The notes beneath the pieces were generated by a model, which made no database searches, was not told where the DNA came from, and saw only the letters and a list, made by a program, of their open reading frames with translations. Below, one piece after another: positions 2,303-16,684 of a stretch of 16,816 nt of DNA. Position numbers and translations under genes: made by a program. Source of the DNA: Spirochaetaceae bacterium (lineage in GTDB: Bacteria; Spirochaetota; Spirochaetia; Treponematales; Breznakiellaceae); the NCBI GenBank assembly GCA_031278575.1, contig JAITKD010000042.1:1-16816 (forward strand). Reading direction: 5' to 3'. How positions within the stretch are numbered: the first letter of the stretch is position 1; each line of letters starts with the position of its first letter.

Positions 2303-2448
2303 GTTAGGGAAACGCTGATTAACTTGACGCTCATCGCGTTTCCCTAATGTATTTGCTCGTTTCATTGCGCAAATGGGGTAAACTTTGTTTACCTTGCGTT
2401 AAAGGAGCGCCGATTTATTCTCGATTGAATAAATCAGTGCTTCCTTAG
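2303..2448. repeat. Modular multi-hairpin repeat, copy A
   Basis: Shares two blocks with the reverse complement of 16539-16684: 2303-2374 matches 16684-16613 at 70 of 72 positions, and 2417-2448 matches 16570-16539 at 31 of 32. Four hairpins can be drawn: TTAGGGAAACGC arms (2304-2315/2336-2347); ATTTGC/GCAAAT (2351-2356/2369-2374); GGTAAAC-TTT-GTTTACC (2377-2393, missing in the other copy); and GATTTATTC/GAATAAATC (2412-2420/2427-2435) extended by imperfect flanks. It encodes no evident protein. It fills the spacer between the LolA-like and beta-barrel genes and ends six bases before the latter's ribosome-binding site. Confidence 0.9.
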
Positions 2449-5482: not shown

Positions 5483-6064
5483 GTGTCCGTTGAAATAGAA
5501 TTAAAAGCCTGGGTAGATGATCCCGATAGGGTGCGGCTCCGGCTCTTTTCCCGCGCCGGGCAGGGTACTTCTTTTGAAAAAGCGGATGCCTATTGGGTGT
5601 TTCCCGGGGGATGCGGCGCGGTCCCCCCGTCGGGGGTACGGATCCGAAGGGAAACCAGAACCGACCCTGCCGGAGCGGTTTCGCAAGCCCTGTGGGTAAC
5701 CTACAAGGTCAAGGAAGTCCGGGGGGGTATGGAAATAAACGACGAGCGGGAATTTTCGGTATCCGATGCCGCCGCCTTTGAGGATTTGCTCCGCCGGCTG
5801 GGGCTTCAAAAGGGCATAGAAAAAAACAAGCGGGGATGGGCCTGGAACTGCGCCGGCATCACCGCGGAACTCACCGAAGTAGCGGGCCTCGGCTGGTTTG
5901 TGGAACTGGAAATCATCACCGATGATGCGGCCGAGGGGACCGTAACCGCCGCCAGGACCCGTCTTTTGGCGTTGCTCCGCAAAATCGGCGTCAAAAAGAA
6001 CCGGATCGAACCCCGGTATTACACGGAAATGCTCCGGGCCCCCCAGGGGGTTTCAGGCCCCTAA
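5483..6064 (+). CDS. CYTH-domain protein (class IV adenylate cyclase / triphosphatase type)
   Basis: CYTH proteins fold into an eight-stranded tunnel that binds triphosphates with divalent metal; members include CyaB adenylate cyclases, thiamine triphosphatases and inorganic triphosphatases. The N-terminus VEIELKAW holds the hallmark ExExK (Glu4, Glu6, Lys8). Further charged strand motifs follow in the expected order: VRIRRETR, WVTYKVKEVR, NDEREF, NKRGWAW and WFVELEII. Length, 193 residues, is typical. Start is GTG at 5483, five bases after GAGGGGG (5471-5477). The last eight residues, APQGVSGP, and the stop are encoded by a GC-rich repeat also found after rnz, so the natural C-terminus may have been replaced. 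The HD-GYP gene ends 102 bases upstream, so a nucleotide-signalling role is tempting, but the substrate cannot be told from sequence. Confidence 0.85.
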   Translation: MSVEIELKAWVDDPDRVRLRLFSRAGQGTSFEKADAYWVFPGGCGAVPPSGVRIRRETRTDPAGAVSQALWVTYKVKEVRGGMEINDEREFSVSDAAAFEDLLRRLGLQKGIEKNKRGWAWNCAGITAELTEVAGLGWFVELEIITDDAAEGTVTAARTRLLALLRKIGVKKNRIEPRYYTEMLRAPQGVSGP

Positions 6065-10606: not shown

Positions 10607-10835
10607 CCCCCCTAGGGGGTTTCAGGCCCCTAAAGGGCCCCCCGAATAGGTTGAAGGGCCCCCTCCTTTGAAGGCGGACGGGCGGCCTGCACCCCTTCTG
10701 GAGCCCCCCCTAGGGGGTTTCAGGCCCCTAAAGGGCCTCCCGAATAGGTTGAAGGGCCCCCTCCTTTGAAGGCGAAGGGGGGCGCCCCCATGGGACCCCG
10801 GCGGGCCCTATGGGGGCCTGAAAGCCCCTAGGGGG
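10607..10835. repeat. GC-rich repeat cluster: two 70-base direct copies and an inverted fragment
   Basis: Copy 1 (10607-10676) and copy 2 (10705-10774) agree at 69 of 70 positions and are separated by 28 unrelated bases, giving a 98-base period. Each begins CCCCCCTAGGGGG, followed by TTTCAGGCCCCTAAAGGG, and ends CTCCTTTGAAGGCG. A partial copy in the opposite orientation lies at 10812-10835 (22 of 24 against copy 1). C-run/G-run pairs give several strong hairpins. A long T-run occurs only at 10861-10867, 25 or more bases after the last hairpin, so a standard terminator is not evident. Confidence 0.9.
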
Positions 10836-14224: not shown

Positions 14225-15203
14225 AAAGAAATTATTGGTCCTTTCGGTTTTAACCGGTGTTCTGGGGTTGTTATATGCCGTTGCTTTGGTTTTTGATCCG
14301 GAACGGGTCAATTCCCGGGACGCCTCCTATGTCTGGCTTGAGCCGAAATGGGCGGACCTGGCGGAGCGGGTGGAGATTCAAGATAAGGGAAATGAGGGGG
14401 TTACCCTGGTACGGAACAGCGGCGGATGGTTTGTCTCCTTTGAGGGGAAAGAATATCCGGCAAAACAGTCCCGTATGGAAGACCTTTTACGGATCCTTTC
14501 AAGCCGGGCCGCGTATCCCCTCAGGGCTTCTTCCGCCGCCTCCCATGAAAAGATGGGTCTTGTGGAGGAAGACGCCTCCCGGATCGTCGTCCGGGGCGGT
14601 CCCGGTACGGCCTATCCCCTGTTGGACCTCCTCATCGGTGCGGGGGATGCTTCGGGTAAAGATGTGTACCTCCGCAAAAGCGCCCAGGACGAGGTCCGTT
14701 CCGGGGAGAATAAACTCGCTTCGTATCTTACCGGTACCCGTTCATCCTGGTACAACCTTCGGCTTTTCCCGGAAAACGAAACCGCTCCGGTGGGGGCCGA
14801 TATGGTTCAGCGGATTATCCTTACCCCTCCTCCCGCGAAGCCGGAGGATGAGACCCCCCAGGGCCCCGGTTTTACCCTAAGCCGGAATGGGGCCGGTTGG
14901 GTGCGGGAAGGGGGGGATGGGGAAGCCCTGGACACGAGTAAGGTGGAATCGTATATCCGGGCCGTCGTAGAAGCGGAAGGGGAGGATTTTGTTTCTACCC
15001 TGAATTCTTCGGATCCGGTCTTTACCGAAGGACAGATCACCCTGCAAATCGGGGACAATACCACCCGGATCATCAGGATTGGCCCCCTTTTGGAGTCAGG
15101 AAACCGTTCCGCCGTATCCTCCGGTTCAGACTACGTATACTCCCTGGCGGAATGGACGATGAACCGTATTTTCAGAGACCCTTCTTATTTCGTGACGCAA
15201 TAA
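14214..15203 (+). CDS. DUF4340-type membrane-anchored protein
   Basis: Fourth gene of the Gld-type operon. The 329-residue protein has a basic N-terminus and a single membrane anchor (about 7-27), then repeated beta-rich units with short motifs such as GVTLVRNSGGWFV, IVVRGG and LLIGAGDASGKDVYLR. That arrangement is characteristic of DUF4340 proteins, which commonly follow GldG-like genes. The anchor suggests the bulk is periplasmic, where it could dock with the GldG-like protein (inference). ATG at 14214 lies inside the end of that gene (11-base overlap) with AAGGAAGGGAG just upstream, so the two are coupled. Its last 32 bases overlap the end of the minus-strand gene at 15172. No enzymatic motif is seen. 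Confidence 0.82.
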   Translation: MVFKKKLLVLSVLTGVLGLLYAVALVFDPERVNSRDASYVWLEPKWADLAERVEIQDKGNEGVTLVRNSGGWFVSFEGKEYPAKQSRMEDLLRILSSRAAYPLRASSAASHEKMGLVEEDASRIVVRGGPGTAYPLLDLLIGAGDASGKDVYLRKSAQDEVRSGENKLASYLTGTRSSWYNLRLFPENETAPVGADMVQRIILTPPPAKPEDETPQGPGFTLSRNGAGWVREGGDGEALDTSKVESYIRAVVEAEGEDFVSTLNSSDPVFTEGQITLQIGDNTTRIIRIGPLLESGNRSAVSSGSDYVYSLAEWTMNRIFRDPSYFVTQ

Positions 15204-16335
15204 AGGCCCGGTATTTTACCGGATCGCTTTTAAAGGCCACCACGGGGGATACCGGATCCCCCAGGGCCTTTTTGAGGGCTTTTTCGGTCTCAAAGATAAG
15301 CCGGTCCGCCTCAATGATCCTTTCCAAACGGGAGCTAAGACCGATACAAAGATCTGTTTTTTGGAAATCCGGGAACAGGCTTTGCAGGATCTGATTGTGA
15401 AAAATTTCGGATTTCCTAAGGCCCTGCTCCAGATTGGTATGGGGAATAATAACGGAAATGCCCCGGTATCCCTTTTCAAAAATCAGGTCCCGGTTGGTAA
15501 AATAGTTTACCGCCCCCGCGGCAAACTGATTAAACAACTGTTCATTGATTTTTTCGGGATTTCTAAATTCCATGATGATAAAAACCAGATCCTGCCGATC
15601 AATGGTACAGCGGCGGAGTTCCGATGAAAGCCGGTCCTTGATGTAGTCTTCCCATCCTATGCCATAGGGTGAATAGAGGCCGCGGGGGCCCTGTTCTTCC
15701 TCCCGGAGGGCTTCCGCTGCCGGAGCGGCCTTTACCCCCGGCGGGGCGGCCGTTTCTTTTTTCGGTGCCGGCCGCTCCTGTTCCGTCCCGGCGTTTACCG
15801 GGTCCCCGCTCTTAGTCAGGAGGGATTCCAGGATCAGGGTAAAGCAGGCAATCATCAGGACCGTTAAAACCGCCATAAGGGTGTATTTCAATATATTGAT
15901 AAAGCCTTGCGGATCAAGAGAGGAGGAGACCGCGCTGATAGTGGCGTTTCGGATGCCATCCAGCCCGAGGGCGCTGAAAAAAGGCTCTTTAGAAAAACCC
16001 CAGACGGTTTTAAAGCGGGGGGACCCGCCGATCCAGGTAATGATACGGCCCGGCTCCCGTTCAAAGGCATCTATCCCCAGGGGGCTGGAAACGATCACGG
16101 CCTGGAGGGTTTTTGAGTTCAAGAGGGCATCCTGGATAGCCCCCTTGAAGGATTCGCTCGTAAATCCCAGCGTTCCCGCCGTCGATGAGATCTCCACAAG
16201 TTCGGCAAATTCCCGTTCCGCTAATCTTTGACGATCATTAATACCGGTAATGATTTTATAGGCCGCGAATCCCAGGGCCACAACATATACCGCTATACAA
16301 ATAATGGCTATCACCGATAATATTTTCTGCCGCAT
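15172..16335 (-). CDS. Two-TM membrane protein with degenerate GGDEF-like domain
   Basis: I do not recognise a named family. The 387 residues comprise: membrane segment 1 (about 5-29), a periplasmic sensor-sized domain (30-148), membrane segment 2 (149-171), a Pro/Ala/Glu-rich linker (175-220) and a cytoplasmic domain (about 223-367). The last follows the GGDEF pattern: DLVFIIMEFRNP where the metal-binding strand would be, FEKGYRGISVIIPHTNLEQG where GGDEF should stand, LCIGLSSR for the late conserved strand, and LIFETEKALKKALGD for the final helix. GYRGI replaces the active-site loop, so cyclase activity is unlikely; it may bind a nucleotide or a partner. ATG at 16335 has no ribosome-binding site, and a TATAAT box lies 7 bases before it. 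The 3' end overlaps the DUF4340 gene by 32 bases tail to tail. Confidence 0.75.
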   Translation of the reverse strand: MRQKILSVIAIICIAVYVVALGFAAYKIITGINDRQRLAEREFAELVEISSTAGTLGFTSESFKGAIQDALLNSKTLQAVIVSSPLGIDAFEREPGRIITWIGGSPRFKTVWGFSKEPFFSALGLDGIRNATISAVSSSLDPQGFINILKYTLMAVLTVLMIACFTLILESLLTKSGDPVNAGTEQERPAPKKETAAPPGVKAAPAAEALREEEQGPRGLYSPYGIGWEDYIKDRLSSELRRCTIDRQDLVFIIMEFRNPEKINEQLFNQFAAGAVNYFTNRDLIFEKGYRGISVIIPHTNLEQGLRKSEIFHNQILQSLFPDFQKTDLCIGLSSRLERIIEADRLIFETEKALKKALGDPVSPVVAFKSDPVKYRAFIASRNKKGL

Positions 16336-16538: not shown

Positions 16539-16684
16539 CTAAGGAGGCACTGATTTATTCAATCGAGAATTCGCCAACTGCGTTGGCGCAATCGGTGCTA
16601 CTTTAACGTTGTATTTGCGCAATGAAATGAGCAAATACATTAGGGAAACGCGATTAGCGTCAAGTTAATCAGCGTTTCCCTAAC
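16539..16684. repeat. Modular multi-hairpin repeat, copy B (inverted relative to A)
   Basis: The reverse complement shares 70 of 72 bases (16684-16613) and 31 of 32 bases (16570-16539) with copy A at 2303-2448. Between the blocks it lacks A's GGTAAAC-TTT-GTTTACC hairpin but carries a different perfect hairpin, CGCCAAC-TGC-GTTGGCG (16572-16588). The large hairpin (GCGTTTCCCTAA arm) is kept, and its inner GATTA/TAATC pair is intact here though broken in A. The element ends 6 bases before the lipoprotein start codon. Confidence 0.9.

Follow-up and report, generated by a model that had tools for sequence, protein, structure and literature searches.

Several described systems resemble the short hairpin repeat that we analyze here. 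Miniature non-autonomous transposons (MITEs) derived from IS5-family elements are, like it, short, non-coding and multi-copy, and they and the IS5_4-type insertion sequences (IS) have terminal repeats of the GGAARCRCTGATTTATTC kind and a YTAR-like 4-base target duplication, as our element does; it differs from both in its doubled hairpin ends, a third hairpin and optional inner hairpins found in all combinations. The Correia elements of Neisseria are MITEs with inverted repeats, known in two size classes and an internal-deletion form, that duplicate TA; they share with our element the inverted repeats and, very probably, the MITE character, and the four-way mosaic of modules sets ours apart. 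YTAR is given as the target motif of IS5, which duplicates it (PMC10359306). BOX of Streptococcus pneumoniae, made up of boxA, a variable boxB and boxC, is called modular and MITE-like in one account (PMC3049150), and is likewise a short repeat made of modules. As described there, BOX varies mainly in the number of tandem boxB units, whereas our element has two different single hairpins, each optional and each with its own fixed place, and its flanking sequence is reshuffled too. BIMEs and REPINs are, in the accounts cited, inverted pairs of extragenic palindromes of mosaic composition (PMC2817692, PMC6006769, PMC3116915), and both features recur here; unlike them, the element has no GTAG-tagged REP and no repeat-flanked RAYT, and it has a 4-base target duplication and IS5-type ends. 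TIRtrons are described as RAYT-like genes with long inverted ends, there with the HUH motif (PMC3733652). Among the titles listed in a literature search, mostly outside subscription journals, none describes the present repeat family.

The window, meaning the whole stretch of 16,816 nucleotides that was analyzed, comes from a draft Spirochaetaceae genome (1.67 Mb in 260 contigs, 60% complete) and contains two copies of the element. An earlier note on this DNA had described near-identical 72- and 32-base blocks around unlike sequence, and both a repeat search and the sequence itself bear this out: the left arms (2303-2374 and 16613-16684, 72 nt) and the right arms (2417-2448 and 16539-16570, 32 nt) are each 97% complementary. 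Copy A proper spans 2308-2444 on the plus strand, between TTAG tetramers at 2304-2307 and 2445-2448, its ends being defined by the duplicated tetramers and by the match to IS ends. It is situated between a LolA-like gene (1503-2246) and an ORF listed from 2462. Copy B proper spans 16543-16679 on the minus strand, with TTAG at 16680-16683 and 16539-16542; the whole (16684-16539) is upstream of a minus-strand ORF at 15172-16335. Other repeats are also present in the window. A second short hairpin repeat, of the GCGAACCTTCGGTTCGATGGAACAGGC kind, is found at 2270-2302, just upstream of copy A, and again on contigs C175, C242, C102, C22 and C157, with and without the element. A direct repeat of 76 bases (96%, spacing 98) at 10607-10780 has many CCCCCTAGGGGG-type palindromes, and 26 bases of it occur again at 6039-6064.

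Copies A and B both fold far better than shuffled sequence (z of -6.9 and -6.8; none of 200 shuffles as good), and the fold divides copy A into a series of hairpins on the plus strand. The left terminal inverted repeat, GGAAACGCTGATTAA (2308-2322), has the consensus GG(C/A)AACGCTGATTAA, and the right one, GGAAGCACTGATTTATTC (2427-2444, minus strand), has GGAAGC(A/G)CTGATTTATTC. Since each end carries an inverted copy of itself, each forms a long hairpin of its own: on the left, the end and its inverted copy (TTAGGGAAACGC...GCGTTTCCCTAA) occupy 2304-2347, and the right hairpin, TTAAAGGAGCGC...GTGCTTCCTTAG, occupies 2399-2448. A middle hairpin, TATTTGC...GCGCAAAT, lies at 2350-2375. Copy A also has inner hairpin A, GGTAAAC-TTT-GTTTACC (2377-2393), and lacks inner hairpin B; copy B lacks A and has B, GCGCCAACGCAGTTGGCGAA (16570-16589, minus strand), set in the stem of the right hairpin. 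In the alignment of intact copies, hairpin A is a 22-nt stretch (2375-2396 in copy A) that replaces 4 nt (ACAA), and hairpin B is a 20-nt stretch that replaces 2 nt (TA), for a net gain of 18 nt in either case. The inner hairpins are discrete pieces, as had been proposed, and not plain insertions, since each replaces a few bases. The element is 127-165 nt long and without coding capacity.

With up to 3 mismatches allowed, the left block is matched 80 times in the host genome and the right block 100 times (reversed-pattern control, 0), so the repeat is present at roughly a hundred sites and is not confined to the two copies of the window. Contigs bearing hits (C260 in part) and some others were sampled, giving 120 loci in addition to the window, or 864 kb, about half of the genome. 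This sample contains 68 elements with both left and right parts, 28 left-only and 38 right-only copies. The repeat evidently breaks the assembly, because 20 of the 28 left-only copies are no more than 110 bases from the end of a contig; for the same reason, a skew of left-only copies in replication strand (6 versus 22, p 0.004) was set aside and plays no part in the argument. The full copies are intergenic: 65 of 68 overlap no ORF of at least 100 amino acids by more than 10%, against 322 of 5000 random 146-mers. They show no clear orientation bias relative to neighboring genes, in small counts. In a pattern scan of named genomes, at least 82 stretches were found, and the 80 matches listed are all from Treponema sp. 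or Spirochaetaceae metagenome-assembled genomes, presumably from termite guts. The right hairpin is found in 11 of 58 genomes searched by pattern, the host included.

The two tetramers beside a full element are equal in 48 of 58 pairs from the host genome (shuffle mean 34.3) and in 39 of 57 pairs from an independent set in other genomes (shuffle mean 18.3), and in both cases none of 20,000 shuffles is as high; they are unequal in the other 10 and 18 pairs, respectively. The duplicated tetramers are mostly TTAG or CTAG, with some TTAA, CTAA and ATAG, and GTAG/GTAG occurs in one pair in the 57 from other genomes. The first base, before the TA, is the most variable and therefore the most informative, and it agrees in 52 of the 57 other-genome pairs. 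Because this base is duplicated along with the TA, a TA-only duplication of the IS630/Tc1 kind is disfavored. Among pairs with equal tetramers there is a strong strand bias, with 66 TTAG and 2 CTAA, an excess that a symmetric DDE enzyme does not predict. Some elements directly adjoin each other with a common TTAG (on C54, C142, C184 and C239); there is no preference for targets beside hairpins (left p 0.95, right p 0.68).

Filled and empty sites can also be compared directly. One TTAG of a host repeat is filled by the element in three copies of that repeat (C161, C32 and C61) and empty in C135, C22, C151, C120 and others. At the locus orthologous to that of copy A in a related genome, G004, the element is absent and the flanks are 90 and 94% identical; the upstream short hairpin repeat is likewise missing there, and the locus therefore does not qualify as a clean, one-event empty site. 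In another relative, G003, the locus has 58 bases between two matched flanks and no element. Together, the duplicated tetramers, the filled and empty sites and the element-free orthologous locus support the mobility that the earlier note had suggested.

The ends point to an enzyme. When the 32-base right end is used as a query, weak matches are found in 24 plasmid records, of which seven were inspected. In four of the seven (Burkholderia anthina, B. vietnamiensis, Marinobacter and Aromatoleum), the match forms the left end ahead of a transposase with an IS5- or IS4-family annotation (in Aromatoleum the reading frame is broken); these four hits are weak on their own, with E values of 3 to 9. 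The other three (Pseudomonas syringae, E. coli and Janthinobacterium) have no annotated transposase at the match. Two of the plasmid elements have a right end with a tetramer equal to the left one, CTAA/CTAA in L419 and CTAG/CTAG in L422, and their transposases score 334 and 354 bits against the NCBIfam model NF033581 (transpos_IS5_4), for which the cut-off is 140.

Among 118 genomes from the family of the host, a search with the Marinobacter protein gives matches in 11, and none in the host genome, as represented by its 60% complete draft. Of six spirochete IS5_4-type genes whose upstream DNA was read, four have a close relative of the element's left end shortly upstream, before the start codon, next to the tetramer CTAG (G011), CTAA (G016), CTAG (G034) or TTAG (G141); by pattern search, G016 and G034 also carry the repeat itself. 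The left end is missing upstream of the genes in G121 and G032, and G032 has a different end. This comparison covers the upstream DNA, and thus left ends, except in G011, where no right end is found in the next 761 bases. Allowing up to 3 substitutions, the left-end pattern has some background, as two matches (L429, minus strand, and L431) are not IS starts; in host contigs the rate on each strand is 0.02 per 220-base stretch. A stricter pattern, drawn up post hoc to fit the four IS starts, is matched a single time in 1.73 million positions outside elements. Element ends were also sought at 49 further loci (30 DDE_Tnp_1 loci in 11 genomes and 19 Y1 loci), where the only hits are a single weak one at L394 and a nested element at L402. 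The PF13340-type elements of G004 were considered as partners and rejected, having other ends (AGCTTATCCCTAAATAA). Those at L417 and L418 have a neighboring TTAG, and the one at L417 seems by eye to lie within a RAYT-like unit.

The element is therefore short, non-coding, intergenic and present in many copies, with IS5-type ends and 4-base YTAR-like duplications, and we consider it very probably an IS5-type MITE with hairpin ends and a mosaic interior. Judging from these ends, it appears to depend on an enzyme supplied by insertion sequences of a known class.

The interior was analyzed in 54 intact full copies, that is, the 68 full copies minus 10 cut by contig ends, three short ones (88, 92 and 94 nt) and one of 220 nt. 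Hairpin A is present in 29 of the 54 and hairpin B in 15. All four combinations exist (neither in 21 copies, A only in 18, B only in 4 and both in 11), and no association between A and B is detected among these copies (Fisher p 0.13). Discrete variation of the inner hairpins, which the earlier note had suggested, is real. It extends beyond the hairpins: in a four-combination test on 435 pairs of variable characters, target-derived and module-linked columns included, every combination occurs in 350 pairs, and in 280 of these each is seen at least twice. Part of this signal could stem from recurrent mutation. Linkage between variable sites, calculated on columns other than the end columns, fades over about 60 bases, the mean r2 being 0.52 at 1-10 bp, 0.17 at 11-30, 0.09 at 31-60 and 0.04 at 61-100; past 100 bp the mean climbs to 0.13 (median 0.035, 28 pairs).

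The stem of the left hairpin has two versions, in which the changes are matched, and there are chimeric left hairpins as well, with the join in the loop (C125, C13 and C183). At up to 1 mismatch on both strands of the 864 kb, the cores of the inner hairpins are not found outside elements as independent repeats. Among the matches listed from Treponema sp. Cd354_bin69, two (L304 and L347) show by eye an inverted hairpin closely related to hairpin B within the left-hairpin loop, and L304 has it in doubled form. Other small hairpins can be seen by eye near the left-hairpin loop among the matches listed from other genomes. We infer exchange between copies, by homologous recombination or template switching, as the source of the hairpin variation. 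The proposal of a non-coding, mobile or recombining element of interchangeable parts is supported by the modules, the copy number, the intergenic position and the duplicated tetramers.

The terminal hairpins are also found alone. The left hairpin, whole or nearly so, occurs by itself at C145, C10, C36, C83 and C140; judged by eye, the flanks are TTAG on both sides at C10 and TTAA/CTAA at C145, and are unmatched at the other three. Among the right-only copies, 36 of 38 are not flagged for a contig edge, although one of the 36 (C99) starts 2 bases from an edge; 27 of the 36 start within about 8 bases of one another, where the middle hairpin meets the right one. Right-hairpin solos mostly have fuzzy left ends and no duplication, with one exact duplicated tetramer seen by eye (C68). 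The left solo C145 and the right solo C68 lie inside a repeat whose other copies, C242 and C234, are empty at GTTAA/CGGTAAA. The idea that each terminal hairpin is able to move alone is only partly supported by these sites. A bolder reading, which we offer tentatively and regard as rather doubtful, is that each terminal hairpin, being two inverted copies of an IS end, would by itself be a minimal transposon, complete in about 45-50 bases; such units, fused together and joined by optional hairpin cassettes, would make up the full element, and cassettes and half-hairpins would be traded between copies by template switching during transposition.

The preferred reading, an IS5-type MITE, has to be weighed against other classes of repeat. 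In a REPIN or BIME, paired extragenic palindromes are moved as single-stranded DNA by a RAYT, a tyrosine transposase with an HUH motif. The two terminal palindromes in inverted relation, the YTAG-like feet, the high intergenic copy number and the strong TTAG strand asymmetry all fit, and a RAYT-like gene is present about 30 times in the host genome, where Y1_Tnp has 32 matches. The earlier note had suggested such a gene as a possible mover. In an alignment of 29 of these copies (one that contains a stop and four that are short were excluded), however, DDWLTFYI or a near variant stands at the HUH position and HxH in none, and the 120 homologs listed of 1270 share the altered motif, with HxH at that place in none; the host copies also seem by eye to be without the C-terminal tyrosine helix. 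Since the HUH motif is missing in the copies and homologs examined, RAYT-like proteins are unlikely movers of the element, and we reject them in that role; they may still have a binding role. The median dN/dS of the RAYT-like copies is 0.24 over 406 pairs, which suggests purifying selection.

Moreover, the RAYT-like units (about 850 bp by eye; for example L177:11573-12037 on C161 and L134:1161-1676 on C61) have their own inverted ends, CTAAACGTGACCCGC...GCGGGTCACGTTTAG, unrelated to those of the element. They are not flanked by the repeat as their own ends, and a few hold the element, as an insertion, so that they are sometimes its targets. At the hairpin foot, in place of GTAG or GT[AG]G, there is NTAG/YTAR that varies by site. 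Full copies show no replication-strand bias (31 versus 37, p 0.54, with contig GC skew as proxy), the element ends match those of the IS5 family, and 4-base duplications are not expected of the RAYT class. A REPIN or BIME is thus, in our assessment, improbable.

A second alternative is a family of structured RNAs or attenuators kept by selection, in which the mosaic would reflect selected hairpin variants instead of mobility. The stable fold (z about -6.9) is compatible with this, and copy A is directly before a putative ribosome-binding site (by eye) of the ORF from 2462. Pairing between the arms of the right hairpin also exceeds that in all 300 shuffles by a small margin (73 distinct arm pairs), as does that in one subset of left hairpins (20 distinct arm pairs). 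Such pairing is equally explained by the hairpin ends of a transposon, however, and the window has no match to an Rfam family at the gathering score. With the lack of a clear orientation preference (in small counts) and the absence of the element from the orthologous locus in G004, we find a conserved RNA family highly improbable.

The element could also be an IS200/IS605 derivative, as PATEs are, moved by a canonical TnpA. Relatives of the host (G003, G004 and G016) have high-scoring Y1 transposase matches; counts of Y1 matches are 35 in G004 and 22 in G016. In the host, a partial Y1 match with stops (C113:5635-5759) adjoins an element at a contig edge; by eye it has a DHVH motif, which suggests a remnant of canonical IS200 type. 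In the IS200/IS605 mechanism, insertion takes place 3' of a tetramer without duplication, and the right tetramer, as part of the element, should be independent of the target. Here the tetramers are duplicated, which disfavors single-strand insertion 3' of TTAG, the left and right first bases are correlated, and the lack of preference for hairpin-adjacent targets also argues against this origin, which we consider highly improbable. Integron attC sites can be set aside, because each copy stands by itself among ordinary genes and both orientations occur.

For the IS5-type MITE, we propose that an IS5-family DDE transposase acting in trans would mobilize the element, joining it to a target resembling YTAR, in most cases TTAG or CTAG, and duplicating 4 bases. 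Each end is folded into its own long hairpin, with a third hairpin between them and the small hairpins A and B as options. Copies in one genome would swap pieces over very short tracts, presumably by recombination or template switching between copies, giving a mosaic family.

As a natural example of a transposon assembled from interchangeable pieces, the element is unusually clear, and a concrete transposase type, IS5_4, can be named as its candidate mover. A single genome holds dozens of near-identical miniature-transposon copies, with only weak linkage between their variable sites beyond about 60 bases. Because this weak linkage is combined with the presence of every hairpin combination, it becomes possible to measure how often tiny repeats exchange sequence and over what tract length, and the family offers a natural setting in which to ask whether template switching is promoted by hairpins. 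If the reading of each terminal hairpin as a minimal transposon were true, the copies would constitute a recombining ('sexual') population of hairpin transposons within one genome.
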